This document shows, one piece after another, positions 9,736 to 19,408 of a DNA stretch of 64,000 bases. The position numbers and the translations under genes are program-made. The notes below the pieces were generated by a model. That model was not told the origin of the DNA and did no database searches. It saw only the letters and a list, made by a program, of their open reading frames with translations. Origin of the DNA: Craspedostauros australis. Lineage: Eukaryota; Bacillariophyta; Bacillariophyceae; Mastogloiales; Achnanthaceae. Where the stretch lies: positions 2,517,001 through 2,581,000 of the forward strand of contig JAMXDE010000009.1 in assembly GCA_026770025.1 (NCBI GenBank), given 5' to 3'. Each line of letters begins with the position of its first letter. The first letter of the stretch is position 1.

Positions 9736-10495
9736 AGCGAGAATAGAGGGCAAAAGAAGTCCGGTTGTGTCCGGCTTTGCCTTCCAGTGTCGGACTTTGG
9801 CAGGTCAAAAGGGGAAGTGAAACTGCCAACGTCAGCGCGGTTAAACGTAGTGTGACCACGAACGTAGATAAGACGATTGAGAATGTGTTTTGAGTTGGTT
9901 TGGTGGTTGTAAAGCTTGAGTTTTGTAAGATTGTTGTTTTTATGAGATTGTTTTGGTTGAAGGTTGGAGAGGAAAACGAGATGGGCTGGTCATCACACTG
10001 CTCTGCTGTTGGTTGTCGCTGTTCATGGTCTTGTACATTTGAAAAATTGCTCCACAATCCCCAGGCGATGAAACCACGATGCTTCATCGCTCTTGGCAGG
10101 TTTGAGAGCTGATTCTCCAATTGTTGGAGTGAAGGTGCGAGTGTTCCATGTCTTAGTCTTGTTCCAATTTTGCAGGATAGTCTTGCTTTTGATCCAAGAC
10201 CGGCACATCCTGCATGGAAGATGTCAGTTTCATACATATGTAATCTTGGAACACATGGCAAAGAGGCAAGTGAGAAGCATCAACTGTGCATGCAGGATGA
10301 GCCATGCACTTGTATTCTTGCAGACAGATGCCTTCACATATGTAGTCTCTTTTGGAGGTAGAGTGCCTGTCCATTTGTTGCTCAATCGTGTGTACTGGTG
10401 GTAGTACAGACAATTCGGTCACCGGTCAATGGGGACATGAAGGGAAAATACCAATTTTCAGCAATTTTTCAGTGACATCATGGTATATTGCAACT
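9736..10495 (-). repeat. 3' LTR of the copia element
   Basis: This repeat of 760 bases is identical, as far as I can read, to 18441-19200. In element orientation it begins AGTTGCAATATACC and ends CTCGCT. It contains a perfect 6-3-6 palindrome (CTCCAA-TTG-TTGGAG, 10115-10129) and a longer inverted repeat GCGATGAA...TTCATCGC (10065-10090), which could fold in the transcript end. Small frames inside are duplicated in the other LTR and are not genes. Confidence 0.95.
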
Positions 10496-10505
10496 CTCCC
10501 TCTCG
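10496..10505 (-). promoter_or_regulatory. Polypurine tract
   Basis: In element orientation CGAGAGGGAG ends exactly at the first base of the 3' LTR, the position required for priming plus-strand DNA synthesis. Confidence 0.8.
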
Positions 10506-10561
10506 ACAAGCAATGGGACCCGTATCGTGAAAACCTCTTCTTCTTCAAACCATCTCACCGT

Positions 10562-13500
10562 TTACCATCCCATGAGCAATTTGCGAAGAGACTCAAATAT
10601 CTCCCGCACTGAGCCCTTGGTAAAGATGTCGGCGATTTGTTCTGCGGATGCCACGCGCTGGATCTTGATGAAGCCCTCCTTCACCCAGTACCAGAAGAAA
10701 TGCCACTTCACAAGAAAGTACTTGGTGCGATTTGTGATGTGATGCTTCGTTGCGAGTGAGATACACGCGTTGTTGTCTTCAAACACGGTGCACTGGAGAT
10801 GCGTGAGCAACTCCTGCTTGAGTCCGGTGCGGGCGGCGACCTCCCGAATGAGCTGTTGTAGTGGAATGAGGGCTCGCATTGCCATTGATAGCGCAGCATA
10901 TTCGGCCTCAGTTGTAGAGAGAGCTATCTCGGTCTGCAGCTTGGACCGCCAGATTAGAGGACATCCTCCAAGGATAATGATGTATCCAGTACGCGACTTG
11001 ACTGATGTAGGATTATCGTCGGGCTCTCGATGATGTAGCCCAGCAAAATCAGCATCGACGTAGCATTGCAGGTCCAGCTTGCCAGATGGCCGGATGATGG
11101 TGCCTTGTGCCTTGGTTCGCGCAAGGTACCGCACGATGGTCTTAAGCGCCCTGGCGTGGGATTGTTTGGGAGCGTGGCTGAAGCGTGCTGCTTGGGACAC
11201 AGCAAACGCAATGTCTGGCCTTGTGTTGGTTGCCAAGTACAGCAGCATACCGATGATTGACCGATAGTTCCAAGATTCCTTCATCACTTCTCCATCCGGA
11301 TCACTACCGAGAGCTGCTTTGGTAGCAGGAATCCAGTTTGGGTTGCACGCTTCCATTCCAGTTGCCGCGATAATCTTATCGATCAGTCCTTGCTGAGACA
11401 TGTGGATCGATCCATCGCGGTTCTTATCCAGCTTGATTCCAAGGAACTCGTTGAACGTTCCTTCCTTGGTCAGCTCGAAGCCGCGTCTGGTCATTGACTG
11501 GATGAAATCGTCGATGTCCTTCTCGTGTGGTGCTGCAATGCCTGCGTCGTCCACATATAGTGCCAGCATCATCCCAGGGCGCAAGAACAGACAGGGGTCC
11601 TGCTCGCTGGCCTTGAACCCTTCAGCGGTTAGTGCTCGCAGCAGATGCTCATGCCAGAGGCGAGGTGCCACTGTCAAGCCATACAGGCTCTTCCGGAGTT
11701 TGAGGCATACGTTGGGTCCGTTGGTTGACCGAAAGCCCCGAGGTAGGTGGATGTAAATGTCGCGATGGATTGCAGCTTGGACGAAGGCGCTCACAAAATC
11801 AATTGATACCGTGACCCAGCCAAGGAGGATTGCGGTGATTAGGAAGACGCGGACCGACGGCCAAGCGACCACAGGAGCGAGAGTGGATTCCGTTTCGTCC
11901 ACAAGGTCGCCTCGAACGCAGAACCTGGCCTTGTGCTTCTTGATGGACCCATCTGGTCGGCGCTTGCGACGGAACACCCAGGTACCCGGTGCAATCTTGC
12001 CAACTGCTTCGGCCTTGCTGACCTCGACCCACGTACCCTTGGAGACCAAGTCTGTGACCTCTTTCTTGGCTGCCTCCATCCACTTTTCTTGATCCTCATC
12101 CTTCATGGCTTCATCAAAGGAGAGGGTATCTGGATCTGTGGGTGATGCTTTGAAGACATTGGGTTCCTCCATAAGCTCGAGGTGGCCATTGGATAGCAGG
12201 AAGGCAGCTTCAGCTCCTGGAGTGACTCTGCCATGTGGGTCGGATTCGCCGTCCTCATTCATTGTCAGAAATGCATATTCCTCTGCTCCGTTGGTATCGC
12301 AGGCGGTCATGGATGGATCTGCGAGCTGCGGGATGGAGTCGATCCACAGGCATTGCTCAATGTCATCTGGATCATGGTCGCTGGTGTCTTGTTCAGTGGA
12401 ATCGGGCATGTTGCTGTCGGGGTTGTCACTGGACCTGGAGGCATTGGATTGGGAGTTCTCTTCGCCATTGGGAGAGACTCGAGGCAGCCCTTCCGGAGGA
12501 TCTATATTGTGGCCTGAAGCTACCTGAGTCCACCAGTCTCTGAGCTCATCAAAGTCAAAGTTGGTTGAGTATGCGTCAAGTCCGTAGTGCTCAATGATGT
12601 GAAGTGCGGTGAGGAGGTTTGCGAGCTGATCGATCTCATTTTGCAAGTCCTGAGGCAGAGCGAACTCCTCTTCCTGTTGGTTGTCTCTCCTGTCTGGATC
12701 TCTCCCATCGTCTTGTACAGCCATGTGCACCATGATTCGATCTCCTCCTTCATCGATATCATCATTGTCGCTCCAGTCTTGCTGAAGCAAGCGACCATGT
12801 ACTGCGTAGATGGTTTCAGACATGTCTGCGATCTGCCAGCGAAAGTGGTTGTCCGGCGAGTCATAGAGAGCCAAAGTGGAGAGTGCAGCCCTGATCATAT
12901 CGCAGGCAGCTTCTTCAGCGGCAGTCAAGCGGGCTCTGGCATTGCTGTCCACTTGTGCGATGTGTGGATTGATACGTCCACAGGAGTCCTGTTTGAGTTT
13001 TTCAAGCTCGGACATGGAAGTTGTCATGTGGATTGCTGCTTCCTCAATGCTGCGCAGTGGTTCAGTGATTGGGCTGTTGCTTCCGTTGGCTCCTTTCAGG
13101 AGTTCAATCGCTGAGAGAATCGAGCTTGACAAGTGGGCGGCCGTCACAGCATCAATGGATGGTGAGGTCTGGTGAATTGGTTGGCAGACGAAGGCCTGAG
13201 CCATGCCACCCATCTGGCTGTATTCAAGGCGTTGTGGAGGAGCTCTCTTTCTGGGGTTGGATCGTCTTGCTTCAATCCGTGCCGATCGACGGACTGGTTG
13301 CTGCTGTCGATTTCGTCTGCGACGCTCCCTCTGTTGAGGTGCTGGGTTCGATGCAATTGGAGATGTTTCTGGCTGAGCCTTCGCTGAGCTAGCATCAGGT
13401 GTCTCCACGCTGGGTCTGTCATGGTCCATGGTGTCCTGATCGTCAGATGGGAGTGGCATGGTGTCATTGTCGTCACCCCTGTCGTCATGAGCAGCCTCCC

Positions 13501-16500
13501 TGCGCGATGGTGGGACTGAGTCTCGCAAGTTGGCCTTCTCCATATTGTTCTGGCCTTCTCTTGGTGCATCAGTTGCAGCACTTGTTGGTTGAGCTGTTGG
13601 TGGTGCAGAGGCTTCATCCGGCGCTGGCGCAGTATCTGATGGTGATGGTGGGAGCTCCGGTCCAAGTTCCACAGGAAGCGGCTCTGATGGTCGATGATCC
13701 GCATTTGCTTGCTCTGCGAGTTGGCGATTCAGATCCTGGTCATGGCTGTCCTGCTCCTCTGCTTCCTGATCCTGCTGCTCGAGGCGTTCCAAATCTTTTT
13801 CATCAAAAGGGAACTTGTACTCGGTATCTCCAAACAGATTCCTCCATTGATCCGAGTTATAGTTGGGAAGGTTGGATGGATCCGAAGGCACTGTGGCAAA
13901 CCAGTCGTCAAACACCACATGAAATTGAGGTGTGATGCTTCCAGTCTTGAGATTCAGAACCAGTGGGACGGTAGAGGAGTGCTTCTCGGAGAGGCCGACG
14001 TGCACAAAACGATCGCTCCGGGCCTTCCATTTTGGAATCTTCTTCCCATCTCCAACTCTGTGATCCAGCACATAAGTGGGACATCCCCAGACGTGTAGGT
14101 TGTGGAAATGCTTCTGTGGGAAGCGAATTCGGGCAAGGATGTCGAAGGGAGAGAGGCCGTTCGCGAGGTTTGGCAGCCGATTGAAGATGAATGCGGAATG
14201 ACGAATTGCCATTGGCCAGAGTGGCACGACGTCCAGTTCGGGCCAGTGCAGAGTGGCATGGAGCATCATGGTTCGAGCGCTTGACACCACGGTACGAATG
14301 CTTCGTTCGGCGATGCCGTTGTGGTGATGCGCTCCGCGTCCTGCATATCGATGGGATTGATGGAAGTGTCGAAGGTGGTCAGCATAGTCTGATGAGGTGA
14401 ATGCCCTTCCATTGTCGCTTTGGTATTGTTGGACAACAATGCCGAGATCTCGACACATGCTCTCGAACTTCTCCTTTGCTCTGATCATGTCTTGAGAAGA
14501 TGTAGACAGGACTGGCTCAGCGAAGATGAATCCTGAAGCATGGTCGACGAATACGATGCCAGCTCCGTACATTTCGTCATCGCTCCCTTTTCCATATCCC
14601 GAGAAGAGTCGTCCCTTTCCACCCCCTTCAAAATGATCCACAGAGACGAGTTGGCCAGGCCGAAGATTACCAAACTTGATGGCTCCCTCTCGATCACGTA
14701 CTGGTCGGTGCAGATGGCCCGGGCTTGAGCGACAGACTTGTTTCCCAAACTGGCATGCTGCGCACTTTGGAAGTGTGGCGAGGCGGGAGGCGCTTGCTTG
14801 TAGCTTGCGTGCGGCTTCGGTGTGCGCCAGGGTTCCCGAACGAAAAAGGTGCTGGATCTTCCGCATGTCATTGTGGCCCAGGCATTGGTGCCAACGCAGC
14901 AGCTCCTTCTGTGGTTCAGACAGGTTGCGGTTGGCGGAGGAAACAGTAGTGATGGTTGCATTGAGGGCATGTGGAATGCGCTCGGTCAATGACTTCATGT
15001 TGTATGCCTTGGAAGTTGGAAGCTTGTTCTTGGGATTGATCTCGATGTTGATCTCTCCCTCTCTTCCTTGGACCTTCCACCTGCCATTCACATACTGCAG
15101 CTCGCCTGGATACATTCTTTCGAATACAGAGGTGCTGATGATCTTGGCGTTGCTTCTTGGCACATAGTATGCCGGGAATTTGAGACGGCGAATGTTTCCT
15201 CTCGTGTCTTGGATGCCCCATTCCACGGTTCCCACCAAGTGGTCAGATCGTCCTCCAAACAGCCCTGTCAGTTTCTTGGCTTGGTTTCCAATTGGCCTTC
15301 TGGGTTCGGAGACGAAGTCGGACTTGTCATGTGAGATACAGACGGTGGATCCGCTGTCCCAAATGACATCACATATCATCTTGGCTGGAAGGACGTTGGC
15401 GAGCTCGTCTGAGCTGTGACGGACAGCCGAGAAACTCGTGATAGAGGATGGTCCATCGTGTGTGCACACAGAATTTGACAGAGGCGCGTCCTCAGGCTTG
15501 AAGTAGGTGCTGAGGATCTGGGCCAGTCTGCTGGTTTGTTTCTCGGTGAGTCGCTGTCGCTGAGCATGAGCATCAAATACCATCATTCGCTGACGCTGAT
15601 TGCGATGTTTCTTCTTGGATGGTCCTTGCACTTCATGTCGACGAATAGGAACGGCTCTGGTTCCGAACCTGGCACCATGGCTGATGGAATTGGCTCTTGG
15701 CCGTGGGTTGGAGAAAGCCGTGCTTCTGAATCTGTGCTTGTTCGGGTTGTTCTCAAGACCGATCACACGATGACTGCGTCGCCTCAACCCAGCTGCTCTT
15801 GCTCTGGGATGCATGTTGGTTGATGCATGCATTGCAGATACTGGAGGGTCGAAGCGAGAGCGGTGGTGGCGGAGACGAATCGGAGCACGACGATGAAAGT
15901 TGATCCAATCCTTGGGTTGGGCTCGGTCACGACGGCGATCTTTCTTTTCCCAATAGGCTTCGCAGCGGCGTTGCCAACGAGGCTTGGGAACTGGACCATC
16001 AGGGTGGCGAGGCATGTCATGGTGCTTGCGTGCCAGGTATATTGCAGTGACCATCCATGCTGCAATCGAGGCTGTCTCCCACCCATGCATGACTGCAAAG
16101 ATGAGGACCTGGATGAGCAGTGGAATGAAAAGAGGAAAGGCACCAAAGAGGAGAGCCAATGGACCAAGGTAGGCCTGGATGATTTGGAACCACCCAGATG
16201 GACTTTCTTCCGTCACCTTGTAGACGTGCCATTCGGTGGAATCGAATGTGACTGTGTTGGCAGCGGTCTCGCTCTTGTTCTTGTCCTTGTCCTTGTCCTT
16301 GAAGTCGTTTCTGTGCTCGCTGGTGCCATGGGAGGTGAGCCAACGCTTGCACTTGGCACACCACTTGAAAGTGGAGCTCCTGACAACCTTCTGGTGCGGT
16401 TCACCCTTGGAAGGGGGAACAGAACGCCAACTGGTGTTGGAAGAACCCTTCTTTGCGTTGTTGGAACCCTTCTTGCCTTTGCTGCTGTGGTTGGAGCCTT

Positions 16501-17932
16501 CACCTTTCTTCAGATTGGGGCAGTTGGCCTTGACATGACCAGGTTCTCCGCAGTTGTGGCAGATGATGGGCGTCTTTCCACCATTCTGCATCAGGGCCAG
16601 TGCCGTGCTTTCGTCGATCTCGATGCCTCCATTTTCTCCAGAGAGGAAATACCCAGCGTTGCTGTTCTTGTGATTGCGCAAGTAGGAGGCTGCATGCCAT
16701 TGTCCAGCATGAAGCTCTTGCTTGTACAGGTCGGTGGCAAGATTGCAGACATCACGCCAGTGAAGGCGATCCTTCAAGATGCGTCGGTCCTTCTCGGCCT
16801 TGGTGCAGCACCCGATTTGGATCAGCACTTCTTTGAGGTTGCCGAGTTTGCTGTGGAGACCAAAGCGGTAGCGCTCCCCGGATGTGCCAGAGCCGCCAGC
16901 AGAGAGAAACTTGGTGAGGATGTCCGCAGTGAGGGCGTGGTCATATTGGCCAGCATCTTCGAGAACTTGGGCGTCCTTGCGGGTGTCATCAGCAAACTTC
17001 TTGATGTTCTCACCGGCGTAGGTCTTGGGAGTGCGACGGCGGATGTTCTGCTTGATGCGATCATACTTGTCGAAAGTGGTGGTTCGCAAGTCCTCAATCA
17101 GCTCCATCCAAAGAATGACAAAATCCTCGCGTTGATCCGGATGGACCCGCGCCAAGATGTCGTCCTTCAGGCTTGGCTGGAGAGAGTTGAGGAGAAAGCG
17201 GCAGGCAGTGACGTTGTTGCGGCGGTCGTACTCATCAAAATGGCTTGCCATTTCGGTTGCTTCTTCCATGATGGTCTTTTGGTTGAAGCGGTACGGATGG
17301 GCAACGACGCTGGTCGTGTCTTTGGGGTCAGATGGCTCCTTGAGGTAGGAGATGGTGTCGAGCCCTCTGGCTTTGAGTTCGGACATGAAGTCGCGCTGGA
17401 AGGCTTGAAGATTGCTCTGGCGGTGGAACTTGGGTTCAAGGCCCTTCTCCATGTCGGGTTGGCTCTTGACATCGGCTCCGCTTGCAGTGGAGCGCTTCTG
17501 GAGAACGTAGAGGTAGGTGTTGGGCTCGTCAACAAGCCCAGACCAGTCAGCTTTGGGCTTTCCCCCGGTGAAGGGGAACCAGTTCTTTCCCACCTTGACG
17601 ATGTTGCCCATCACCGGCTTGGTTGGGCGATTGGCGAGTTCACGTTCCGTCTCGGCTGCGGTGCGGCCCAGTTCGAAGATTTCCTGGGAGGTGTTGACAC
17701 CAGATACCTCGGTTTGAAGGAGACGCTCGTGGGCTTCCTCCCTCTCAGTCAGATTCGCGAGTCGTTCTTGAAGGACTTGGCTCGCTTCGTTCAGTTGTTG
17801 TTGCTGGGCCAGAAGGCGGGCCTGCATCTGGCTGAGCTGTTCCAAGGTTGCTGCTTGAGTGGCAGCTACCTCGGCTTGAGTTGTGGTGGCTCCACCTTGG
17901 GTGACGGTGGCCTCCGGTTGATCATCCACCAT
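10562..17932 (-). CDS. Copia Gag-Pol polyprotein, intact
   Basis: A single frame of 2456 codons without a gag/pol shift. Gag has a Gln-rich coiled coil (residues 30-70), a CCHC knuckle CHNCGEPGHVKANC (458-471) and a second CxxC...H...H finger (WCAKCKRWLTSHGTSEH, ~524-540). A hydrophobic double span follows (~587-633), then a long Arg-rich region. Protease: VIWDSGSTVCIS (DSG at ~859). Integrase: HHCC zinc site WHQCLGH...CAACQFGK, catalytic Asp in VSVDHF (~1099), Asp in SDNGRAF (~1173) and Glu near 1209. A Pro/Asp/Ser-rich linker of several hundred residues precedes reverse transcriptase (SIDFVSAFVQ ~2040, YVDDAG ~2128) and RNase H (YVDADF ~2291, TEAEYAA ~2342, EDNNACI). The catalytic residues I checked are present. 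The frame starts about 508 bases inside the 5' LTR. Confidence 0.95.
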   Translation of the reverse strand: MVDDQPEATVTQGGATTTQAEVAATQAATLEQLSQMQARLLAQQQQLNEASQVLQERLANLTEREEAHERLLQTEVSGVNTSQEIFELGRTAAETERELANRPTKPVMGNIVKVGKNWFPFTGGKPKADWSGLVDEPNTYLYVLQKRSTASGADVKSQPDMEKGLEPKFHRQSNLQAFQRDFMSELKARGLDTISYLKEPSDPKDTTSVVAHPYRFNQKTIMEEATEMASHFDEYDRRNNVTACRFLLNSLQPSLKDDILARVHPDQREDFVILWMELIEDLRTTTFDKYDRIKQNIRRRTPKTYAGENIKKFADDTRKDAQVLEDAGQYDHALTADILTKFLSAGGSGTSGERYRFGLHSKLGNLKEVLIQIGCCTKAEKDRRILKDRLHWRDVCNLATDLYKQELHAGQWHAASYLRNHKNSNAGYFLSGENGGIEIDESTALALMQNGGKTPIICHNCGEPGHVKANCPNLKKGEGSNHSSKGKKGSNNAKKGSSNTSWRSVPPSKGEPHQKVVRSSTFKWCAKCKRWLTSHGTSEHRNDFKDKDKDKNKSETAANTVTFDSTEWHVYKVTEESPSGWFQIIQAYLGPLALLFGAFPLFIPLLIQVLIFAVMHGWETASIAAWMVTAIYLARKHHDMPRHPDGPVPKPRWQRRCEAYWEKKDRRRDRAQPKDWINFHRRAPIRLRHHRSRFDPPVSAMHASTNMHPRARAAGLRRRSHRVIGLENNPNKHRFRSTAFSNPRPRANSISHGARFGTRAVPIRRHEVQGPSKKKHRNQRQRMMVFDAHAQRQRLTEKQTSRLAQILSTYFKPEDAPLSNSVCTHDGPSSITSFSAVRHSSDELANVLPAKMICDVIWDSGSTVCISHDKSDFVSEPRRPIGNQAKKLTGLFGGRSDHLVGTVEWGIQDTRGNIRRLKFPAYYVPRSNAKIISTSVFERMYPGELQYVNGRWKVQGREGEINIEINPKNKLPTSKAYNMKSLTERIPHALNATITTVSSANRNLSEPQKELLRWHQCLGHNDMRKIQHLFRSGTLAHTEAARKLQASASRLATLPKCAACQFGKQVCRSSPGHLHRPVRDREGAIKFGNLRPGQLVSVDHFEGGGKGRLFSGYGKGSDDEMYGAGIVFVDHASGFIFAEPVLSTSSQDMIRAKEKFESMCRDLGIVVQQYQSDNGRAFTSSDYADHLRHFHQSHRYAGRGAHHHNGIAERSIRTVVSSARTMMLHATLHWPELDVVPLWPMAIRHSAFIFNRLPNLANGLSPFDILARIRFPQKHFHNLHVWGCPTYVLDHRVGDGKKIPKWKARSDRFVHVGLSEKHSSTVPLVLNLKTGSITPQFHVVFDDWFATVPSDPSNLPNYNSDQWRNLFGDTEYKFPFDEKDLERLEQQDQEAEEQDSHDQDLNRQLAEQANADHRPSEPLPVELGPELPPSPSDTAPAPDEASAPPTAQPTSAATDAPREGQNNMEKANLRDSVPPSRREAAHDDRGDDNDTMPLPSDDQDTMDHDRPSVETPDASSAKAQPETSPIASNPAPQQRERRRRNRQQQPVRRSARIEARRSNPRKRAPPQRLEYSQMGGMAQAFVCQPIHQTSPSIDAVTAAHLSSSILSAIELLKGANGSNSPITEPLRSIEEAAIHMTTSMSELEKLKQDSCGRINPHIAQVDSNARARLTAAEEAACDMIRAALSTLALYDSPDNHFRWQIADMSETIYAVHGRLLQQDWSDNDDIDEGGDRIMVHMAVQDDGRDPDRRDNQQEEEFALPQDLQNEIDQLANLLTALHIIEHYGLDAYSTNFDFDELRDWWTQVASGHNIDPPEGLPRVSPNGEENSQSNASRSSDNPDSNMPDSTEQDTSDHDPDDIEQCLWIDSIPQLADPSMTACDTNGAEEYAFLTMNEDGESDPHGRVTPGAEAAFLLSNGHLELMEEPNVFKASPTDPDTLSFDEAMKDEDQEKWMEAAKKEVTDLVSKGTWVEVSKAEAVGKIAPGTWVFRRKRRPDGSIKKHKARFCVRGDLVDETESTLAPVVAWPSVRVFLITAILLGWVTVSIDFVSAFVQAAIHRDIYIHLPRGFRSTNGPNVCLKLRKSLYGLTVAPRLWHEHLLRALTAEGFKASEQDPCLFLRPGMMLALYVDDAGIAAPHEKDIDDFIQSMTRRGFELTKEGTFNEFLGIKLDKNRDGSIHMSQQGLIDKIIAATGMEACNPNWIPATKAALGSDPDGEVMKESWNYRSIIGMLLYLATNTRPDIAFAVSQAARFSHAPKQSHARALKTIVRYLARTKAQGTIIRPSGKLDLQCYVDADFAGLHHREPDDNPTSVKSRTGYIIILGGCPLIWRSKLQTEIALSTTEAEYAALSMAMRALIPLQQLIREVAARTGLKQELLTHLQCTVFEDNNACISLATKHHITNRTKYFLVKWHFFWYWVKEGFIKIQRVASAEQIADIFTKGSVREIFESLRKLLMGW

Positions 17933-17974
17933 CCTTCAAAAGCTGCACTTGGAGAGGTTACGGATTTCCTGATG

Positions 17975-18365
17975 AGCAGCTGAGCTGCTGGTTCGCAGAT
18001 GTTCTGCTGGAGTATCGATCGATGGTCGCAACTGCGTTGCGAGTTGTGATTGCTGAGCTTCAGTCAGCAGGTGTCTGGGAGTGAGGCAACTGTGTTGCGG
18101 GCAGTCAGCTGCACTGCTGCGGGTAGATCAGTGGGTGCCTGTGGCAGGAACAACTGTGTTGCAAGCAGTCAGCTGCGCTGCTGCGGGTAGATCAGCAGAT
18201 GATTGGCTGATTATCGTTGGAGCAACTGCGTTGCTGGCGTTCGGACAGCTGGGCTGTCAGTGGGCGGCTTGACTCTTGCTTCCTGCAGTGAAGCTCACAG
18301 GGTCCAAGCCACGGATGCGGGTCGCTGTGGCAGCGACTTGGTTGGATGAGGAAGTCTGAGACTTC
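17975..18365 (-). repeat. Array of short perfect palindromes with three-base TGN loops in the copia leader
   Basis: Between the 5' LTR and the gag start I count eight perfect inverted repeats, each with a loop of exactly three bases that reads TGN on the plus strand: 17975-17989 (6-bp stem), 18026-18042 (7), 18086-18098 (5), 18151-18161 (4), 18221-18235 (6), 18244-18258 (6), 18321-18337 (7) and 18351-18365 (6). In element RNA the loops read UCA, GCA, ACA, ACA, GCA, CCA, CCA and UCA. A 45-base block is also tandemly repeated (18087-18131 and 18151-18195), and longer-loop inverted repeats occur at 18051-18069 and 18191-18211. No coding frame explains them. Confidence 0.75.
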
Positions 18366-18420
18366 GTGGGATCGGTTCTTGCGCTATTGATGAGGCTCTC
18401 TGTCGAATCTTGACTTCAGC

Positions 18421-18440
18421 GTAAGACCAGGCTCATAACC
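18421..18440 (-). promoter_or_regulatory. Primer binding site, half-tRNA(Met) type
   Basis: The element strand reads GGTTATGAGCCTGG directly after the 5' LTR. Its complement, CCAGGCTCATAACC, has the form of a tRNA anticodon arm: stem CCAGG, loop CTCATAA with anticodon CAT, then the start of the 3' stem strand. This is the arrangement of Drosophila copia, which is primed by a 5' half of tRNA-Met cut in the anticodon arm, instead of by a tRNA 3' end. Confidence 0.7.
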
Positions 18441-19200
18441 AGCGAGAATAGAGGGCAAAAGAAGTCCGGTTGTGTCCGGCTTTGCCTTCCAGTGTCGGAC
18501 TTTGGCAGGTCAAAAGGGGAAGTGAAACTGCCAACGTCAGCGCGGTTAAACGTAGTGTGACCACGAACGTAGATAAGACGATTGAGAATGTGTTTTGAGT
18601 TGGTTTGGTGGTTGTAAAGCTTGAGTTTTGTAAGATTGTTGTTTTTATGAGATTGTTTTGGTTGAAGGTTGGAGAGGAAAACGAGATGGGCTGGTCATCA
18701 CACTGCTCTGCTGTTGGTTGTCGCTGTTCATGGTCTTGTACATTTGAAAAATTGCTCCACAATCCCCAGGCGATGAAACCACGATGCTTCATCGCTCTTG
18801 GCAGGTTTGAGAGCTGATTCTCCAATTGTTGGAGTGAAGGTGCGAGTGTTCCATGTCTTAGTCTTGTTCCAATTTTGCAGGATAGTCTTGCTTTTGATCC
18901 AAGACCGGCACATCCTGCATGGAAGATGTCAGTTTCATACATATGTAATCTTGGAACACATGGCAAAGAGGCAAGTGAGAAGCATCAACTGTGCATGCAG
19001 GATGAGCCATGCACTTGTATTCTTGCAGACAGATGCCTTCACATATGTAGTCTCTTTTGGAGGTAGAGTGCCTGTCCATTTGTTGCTCAATCGTGTGTAC
19101 TGGTGGTAGTACAGACAATTCGGTCACCGGTCAATGGGGACATGAAGGGAAAATACCAATTTTCAGCAATTTTTCAGTGACATCATGGTATATTGCAACT
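18441..19200 (-). repeat. 5' LTR of the copia element
   Basis: This copy is in the transcription-start position for the minus-strand element and would carry its promoter. It is identical to 9736-10495 over 760 bases by eye, including the palindrome at 18820-18834. Confidence 0.95.
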
Positions 19201-19408
19201 AGAATGTTTACCAGAACTTTCGCAGAGGAAAATCAACGACAACAACAACAACAGCAAAAATGATGGAGATTCATCGAACTTGCATCTCTTTAAATTGTAT
19301 CAGCATGGTGCACGTGAATATTCTGAACAGAGTGGTGTGCATCGGCTGGTGTCTTCTGCCATGGGTTTGCAATGCGACCGAGGATGTCAATAGGACTGAG
19401 AGTGTGAA

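Follow-up and report, generated by a model that had tools for sequence, protein, structure and literature searches.

Between its primer-binding site and its gag-pol start codon, a copia retrotransposon of the window (the whole stretch of DNA that was analysed, 64,000 nt) carries an array of short perfect hairpins whose number exceeds the maxima reached by shuffled sequence. A hairpin excess recurs in the leaders of four other copia families of the same genome, and stems vary less than loops when families are pooled. A neighbouring element of these sister leaders covaries, and in the family of the window's element, which we label F1, no ATG follows the primer site within the leader. A structure at the level of RNA is well supported for the arrays as a class and for the sister element, and F1 by itself shows no compensatory pairs. 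We give about even chances to the reading that it is selected, most likely for multivalent recognition by Gag, through which the genomic RNA would be picked out, compacted or brought into dimers.

The element, its leader and its primer site

The element consists of the following features.
9736-19200, minus strand: copia element with LTRs, open reading frame and leader
18441-19200, minus strand: 5′ LTR, 760 bp
9736-10495, minus strand: 3′ LTR, 760 bp, identical to the 5′ LTR
10562-17932, minus strand: intact gag-pol open reading frame, 2456 aa (7371 bases)
17933-18440, minus strand: leader, 508 nt from the primer-binding site to the gag-pol ATG, bearing the hairpin array
18427-18440, minus strand: primer-binding site GGTTATGAGCCTGG, complementary to tRNA-Met nucleotides 26-39 (anticodon arm)

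The sequence-only reading had placed the array in the leader of a copia retrotransposon, and the domain order, the paired LTRs and the primer site all agree with this. In the gag-pol product, RVT_2 was matched at aa 1968-2204 (E 5e-36) and the CCHC knuckle at aa 457-473 exceeded its cut-off; rve (aa 1091-1197) and gag_pre-integrs (aa 994-1065) fell short of their curated cut-offs, by a slight to a clear margin, yet stand in copia order. RVT_2, an integrase upstream of reverse transcriptase (RT), two LTRs, a target-site duplication (AGAAT on each outer flank) and a primer site at the LTR edge place the element in Ty1/copia (Pseudoviridae). Since the LTRs are identical, the flank is duplicated and the frame is open, the insertion appears to be recent and looks intact. 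In element sense the LTRs (9736-10495 and 18441-19200) have the ends AG...CT, which differ from the usual TG...CA. An antisense open frame of 718 aa (15827-17983, plus strand) overlaps gag and extends into the leader; it is probably a by-product of composition.

With the leader as query, a search through the full genome (74.8 Mb in 90 contigs) returned 21 matches of 97-100% identity, 17 of them spanning all 508 bases. The F1 set comprised 20 gag loci (L009-L028), of which 19 yielded a leader and one (L020) had no locatable primer site. RT had 2356 relatives at E ≤ 0.001 among 7995 candidates scored, and for Gag no relative was found in the protein collection at E ≤ 0.001 among 7997 candidates scored.

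The first 14 bases of the F1 leader are complementary, at 14 of 14 positions, to nucleotides 26-39 of a tRNA-Met gene in the genome. This gene was located by a gapped pattern no rarer than its control (3 vs 4 matches), and its identity rests on ARAGORN. Because the site pairs with nucleotides 26-39, an internal segment of the tRNA and not its 3′ end would act as primer, so that F1 would use half-tRNA priming of the Hemivirus type. The core of the site had 22 matches in the genome; two of these fall beyond the 21 leader hits, and neither lies in a tRNA gene. Sister leaders start with TGGTAGCTGCGA, the complement of the 3′ end of the same tRNA-Met after CCA addition, and AACTGGTAGCTGCGA had 165 genome matches (reversed control, 0). 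One tRNA-Met is matched by two primer strategies in a single genome, through its anticodon-arm segment in F1 (18427-18440) and through its 3′ end in the sisters (L029-L038, L069-L072 and L077).

The hairpin array of F1

Eight perfect triloop palindromes reported from sequence alone were all recovered in place, with stems of 5-7 bp (six of them 6-7 bp), and 8 of 8 loops read TGN on the plus strand, which is NCA in the element RNA. At stems of at least 4 bp the leader holds 15 triloop palindromes, 12 of them with NCA loops; two of the 12 overlap, which leaves 11 separate hairpins. These are given below together with two further features of the array. Mean pair probabilities were computed on the leader alone unless flanks are stated.
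18351-18365, minus strand: hairpin GAAGTC-UCA-GACUUC, mean pair probability 0.99
18321-18337, minus strand: hairpin GUCGCUG-CCA-CAGCGAC, mean pair probability 0.98
18244-18258, minus strand: hairpin GACAGC-CCA-GCUGUC, mean pair probability 0.99
18221-18235, minus strand: hairpin AGCAAC-GCA-GUUGCU, pair probability 0.53 alone and 0.22 with flanks
18170-18180, minus strand: 4-bp hairpin CAGC-GCA-GCUG, 0.00, not formed in the predicted leader fold
18151-18161, minus strand: 4-bp hairpin CAAC-ACA-GUUG, 0.01, not formed in the predicted leader fold
18138-18148, minus strand: 4-bp hairpin CCUG-CCA-CAGG, mean pair probability 0.89
18086-18098, minus strand: hairpin GCAAC-ACA-GUUGC, mean pair probability 0.74
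18026-18042, minus strand: hairpin UCGCAAC-GCA-GUUGCGA, mean pair probability 0.94
17995-18007, minus strand: hairpin GCAGA-ACA-UCUGC, mean pair probability 0.90
17975-17989, minus strand: hairpin AGCAGC-UCA-GCUGCU, mean pair probability 0.89
18051-18178, no strand: 64-base tandem duplication over part of the array
18014-18023, no strand: 10-base self-complementary ATCGATCGAT, putative palindrome for dimerisation in F1

The claimed excess held when the 508-base leader was shuffled 2000 times with its dinucleotide content preserved. Six triloops with stems of at least 6 bp compare with a shuffled mean of 0.18 and a maximum of 3, and with the loop restricted to TGN the same six compare with a mean of 0.02 and a maximum of 1. 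At stems of at least 5 bp, the observed eight stand against a mean of 0.64 (maximum 5) for any triloop and of 0.08 (maximum 2) for TGN loops. Elsewhere in the window (63.5 kb), triloop palindromes whose stems reach 6 bp number 18; none of the 18 has a TGN loop on the plus strand, and two have a GCA loop on that strand. Within F1, triloops of this stem length number six in the leader, one in the 5′ LTR and none in the gag-pol frame (7371 bases).

Part of the array did grow by duplication, as had been proposed. A direct repeat of 64 bases (18051-18114 and 18115-18178) is 70% identical, and the 45-base tandem block first noticed, matching at 41 of 45 positions, lies within this repeat and runs past it. 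The stems had been described as differing in sequence. This stands for about five distinct types but not for all 11 separate hairpins, which include paralogues and are not all independent: the CAACNCAGTTG core occurs four times, CAGCNCAGCTG three times, CTGCCACAG twice, and GAAGTC and GCAGA once each. As copied palindromic cores stay palindromic, only differing outer pairs and the separate types provide independent evidence. The outer pair beside CTGCCACAG is G-C in one paralogue and C-G in the other; beside CAGCNCAGCTG it is A-T in one, G-C in another and unpaired in the third. Since the stems fall into about five types, copying of cores may account for part of the hairpin count.

A known RNA family as the identity of the array was rejected, as no Rfam 15 score reached its cut-off. 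Window positions 17700-19250 gave no match above the gathering score (the single hit at E ≤ 1 scored 19.9 bits where 44.2 are required), nor did five sister loci (two matches, 21.9 against 110 bits and 19.5 against 100 bits).

Folding of the leader, which the sequence-only reading had suggested as a check, predicted a mean pair probability of at least 0.74 for 8 of the 12 NCA hairpins and of 0.53 for one more. The remaining three, at 0.08 or below, are predicted not to form, and one of them overlaps a better hairpin. The leader is more stable than its shuffles (z -2.6), none of 100 reaching its stability; the opposite strand, as palindromes would lead one to expect, is nearly as unusual (z -2.2; 2 of 100). 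When the leader is folded by itself, the minimum-energy structure pairs 12 of the 14 bases of the primer site. ATCGATCGAT is the sole loopless 10-base palindrome in the F1 leader and might serve in dimerisation.

Past the primer site, the F1 leader contains 0 ATG where 6.4 are expected (0 of 1000 shuffles as low); its one ATG sits in the primer site and opens a frame of six codons. Pooled over five leaders, 3 ATG were found against 15.75 expected (0 of 1000 shuffles as low). Taken singly, the sister leaders were matched by 33 (L030), 152 (L069), 177 (L029) and 631 (L071) of 1000 shuffles, so that individual depletion is slight or absent in L029, L069 and L071. Because no ATG follows the primer site, the F1 leader is most likely scanned by ribosomes and a block to translation start by the hairpins is less likely in F1; under scanning, small local hairpins fit better than one large barrier.

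Sister families, variation and a distant relative

Gag matches at 30-36% identity led to four other families in the genome, labelled F2 (L029), F3 (L030-L038), F4 (L071, L072) and the group L069/L070/L077. They have one to nine members each and are part of the genome's set. Their leaders are 279-444 nt long as read, the L077 piece extending 10 nt beyond its ATG. We counted hairpins with stems of at least 5 bp and loops of 3-6 bases and compared them with shuffled means: 5 vs 0.75 (L029), 5 vs 0.71 (L030), 4 vs 0.72 (L034), 7 vs 1.26 (L069), 7 vs 1.36 (L070), 6 vs 1.01 (L071), 6 vs 0.93 (L072) and, in the F1 leader, 8 vs 2.02. In these seven sisters and F1, the observed count was matched by 0 to 4 of 1000 shuffles. 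When stems of at least 4 bp were allowed, counts were still rare in F1, L069, L070, L071 and L072 (0 to 5 of 1000 shuffles), and F2 and F3 had no clear enrichment, the count being reached by 35 (L029), 111 (L030) and 274 (L034) of 1000 shuffles.

The excess goes with the leaders. With one leader taken per family, the five leaders hold 15.0-17.9 hairpins per kb each and 16.3 per kb when pooled (31 in 1906 nt), against 4.3 per kb in the 600 bases upstream of each leader on the LTR side (13 in 3000) and against 3.8 per kb in coding stretches of unequal length, 185 to 7371 nt (46 hairpins in 11987 nt). Two short coding pieces lie above the mean, that of L069 with three hairpins in 185 nt (16.2 per kb) and that of L071 with three in 431 nt.

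The uniform NCA loop of the first description applies to all F1 stems of at least 5 bp and does not extend to the sister families, whose loops are mixed and three to six bases long; CAA, CCAA, TAAA, CAAAC and AAAA are frequent, and TTC, TCT, CCGG and TGGTT also occur. Among 23 hairpins of four sister leaders, the loop bases are 43% A, 34% C, 12% G and 10% T, and the same leaders overall have 30% A, 34% C, 21% G and 15% T; the A+C share of 77% in loops vs 64% in leaders is a descriptive comparison of raw shares.

For the variation count in F1 we used 18 rows (the window copy and 17 others), leaving out L028, which is broken after leader position 446, and L009, which is the window copy itself. 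Pooled over the four multi-copy families, 11 of 296 stem sites were variable vs 12 of 99 loop sites (Fisher p = 0.005), and the contrast of stems with linkers (82 of 1178) was weak (p = 0.044). A laxer set with stems of at least 4 bp gave 16 of 368 for stems, 14 of 135 for loops (p = 0.018) and 75 of 1070 for linkers (p = 0.08). In F1 alone (18 rows) the stem contrast was not clear, with 5 of 96 stem, 2 of 24 loop and 26 of 388 linker sites variable (28 of 412 elsewhere); both loop changes fall at the N of NCA and are too few to weigh.

Compensatory changes among related copies, which the sequence-only reading had suggested as a check, did not appear: F1 copies, whose matched leader sequences share 97-100% identity, show no two-sided change, and at stems of at least 4 bp no two-sided compensation was found within any of the four families. 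The F1 changes in such stems keep the pair as G-U in four cases and break it in three; over the four families, five retain pairing as G-U and eleven break it. A strand test based on G-U pairs was uninformative (F1: 4 kept, 3 broken). The closing pair of the hairpin at 18244-18258 is C-G in the window copy and U-G in 17 of 20 aligned F1 rows, a tally that keeps both L028 and L009. Evidence from between the families is stronger, and there the idea that shape and not stem sequence is retained is borne out: a hairpin 27-31 nt upstream of GTGCACAC is perfectly paired, with unrelated stems, in four representative leaders of the sister families.

GTGCACAC is invariant in the sister leaders (L029-L038, L069-L072, L077), lies inside a stem 75-111 nt before the ATG and is absent from the F1 leader. 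Together with its inner stem it had 146 genome matches (reversed control, 0). Its alignment covered 8 of the 15 motif-bearing loci in 6 distinct, related rows; 7 of the 9 F3 copies, identical there, were left out. Among these 6 rows, two-sided changes affect 4 of 10 pairs, and pairing holds in 90% of cells. The covariation score and the paired-cell share were each reached by 0 of 500 shuffles, the two-sided pair count by 10 of 500 and the number of pair types by 340 of 500. This covariation supports the view that RNA form matters. Modelled as a bulge in the covarying stem, GTGCACAC is a candidate dimerisation signal of the sister leaders.

A single relative with a leader, L078, was recovered from contigs of other genomes, where an alignment served as query; the first scan of genome contigs and two scans of viral contigs gave no further relatives. 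Its RT is 53% identical to that of F1 and its Gag 26% over 404 aligned columns, and it carries the internal-tRNA primer-site core of F1. The contig is labelled as belonging to a Desulfobacterales MAG and is probably a mis-binned eukaryotic element. L078:1-7036 both begins and ends inside RT, and for this reason it looks like a circle or one-LTR form. The 113-nt leader of L078, from primer site to ATG, contains no hairpin with a stem of at least 5 bp; the 400 bases before the ATG contain four, all upstream of the primer site, and 28 of 300 shuffles have as many. A leader without the array hints that the array is not a fixed trait of the wider group, a weak negative because 113 nt at 16 per kb would hold only about two hairpins.

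Possible roles and known systems

In the reading that we favour, genomic RNA would carry short perfect hairpins strung together as modules, with stems that selection maintains. Loops would be family-specific, NCA in F1 and mixed, often A-containing, in the sisters. The element's own Gag, through its CCHC knuckle, would read many hairpins at once, and this recognition would let the genomic RNA be selected, compacted or dimerised for packaging; the leader would meanwhile remain scannable by ribosomes. We infer Gag as the reader, packaging as the purpose and loop identity as a specificity code. A tentative possibility is that the co-resident copia families bear a multivalent hairpin barcode, each Gag reading its own loop type (NCA about a dozen times in F1), which would avert cross-packaging.

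It is doubtful that the array arose by mutation without function. On this view, short and imperfect inverted repeats would be turned into perfect hairpins by template switching while the element is reverse transcribed or replicated, tandem duplication would multiply them, and they would persist only where coding constraint is absent. The shared cores of paralogous F1 hairpins, the partly tandem-duplicated array and the lack of any two-sided compensatory pair within families are in keeping with such an origin, but the 600 bases on the LTR side hold 4.3 hairpins per kb vs 16.3 in the five leaders, 8 of 8 F1 loops at stems of at least 5 bp are NCA, and stems are less variable than loops when pooled. 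We likewise consider it unlikely that the hairpins serve translation and primer access with no protein reader, holding the long leader in local folds that spare the primer site and scanning. The hairpins are local with small loops, and the lack of ATGs after the F1 primer site (0 vs 6.4) implies that scanning matters there; however, this reading would not account for the NCA loop being fixed in one family while the rest have different loops, the leader is stabler than its shuffles (z -2.6), and the minimum-energy fold computed for the leader by itself engages 12 of 14 primer-site bases in pairs. Much less probable is recognition of the dyads by a host factor or by a process acting on DNA (a cruciform, evasion of small RNAs, a methylation target). 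The symmetry of perfect inverted repeats holds for DNA as well, the opposite strand reaches z -2.2 and the G-U strand test (4 kept, 3 broken in F1) does not discriminate, but in the five leaders compared the excess goes with the interval from primer site to gag start, and the neighbouring element of the sister leaders covaries. Chance or composition, favoured only in that some paralogues inflate the count, is refuted by the shuffles with stems of at least 5 bp and has next to no probability, as observed values exceed the maxima of 2000 shuffles and 7 of 7 sister leaders tested are enriched at that stem length.

If Gag recognition of the array is true, repeated, simple and family-specific hairpins would open packaging specificity to test by loop swaps between the families of one host, the F1 leader would supply a naturally occurring example of multivalent RNA recognition, and the array would offer a search signature for the leaders of other elements. 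The array draws its fair interest from this prospect of testing how specific packaging is among copia families that share a genome.

Drosophila copia uses a 39-nt tRNA fragment as primer, and the F1 primer site is like that of this Hemivirus-type element in lying on an internal part of tRNA-Met that ends at nucleotide 39. A short tRNA segment as primer separates Hemivirus from Pseudovirus in the ICTV account (PMC8515867). The literature searched by title and start of abstract, with most subscription journals outside its scope, contained no description of a hairpin array in a copia leader. Selection of genomic RNA for packaging by LTR retrotransposons, Ty1 included, is described as much less known than in retroviruses in the portion of PMC8396678 on which we draw. 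In Ty1, palindromes for dimerisation and boxes for tRNA binding lie in the 5′ region, which is also proposed to hold a packaging signal (PMC8396678). Ty1 likewise involves the 5′ region of a copia genomic RNA, but uses a long-range pseudoknot and two PAL palindromes; its description, within that portion, mentions no array of short perfect one-loop hairpins such as F1 has between primer site and ATG (PMC8396678).

Closer in form are the gammaretroviral SL-C and SL-D, tandem GACG tetraloop hairpins tied to packaging and dimer stability (PMC5874298, PMC516450). Like the F1 array they are short leader hairpins with a common loop, but there are two GACG tetraloops vs eleven separate NCA triloops. 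The HTLV-1 dimer-linkage region has a CAG tri-loop hairpin in the leader (PMC516450), single and with another loop, and is only loosely like F1. In the HIV-1 DIS, GUGCAC, a common palindrome (PMC5874298), equals the first six bases of the sister leaders' GTGCACAC; the sister motif, however, is modelled as a bulge in a stem and not as an apical loop, and F1 lacks it. Structured leaders of LTR elements are already known, and the F1 hairpin array is a variant on them; by analogy, its parallels with gammaretroviruses and Ty1 would be a likeness of work, not of descent.
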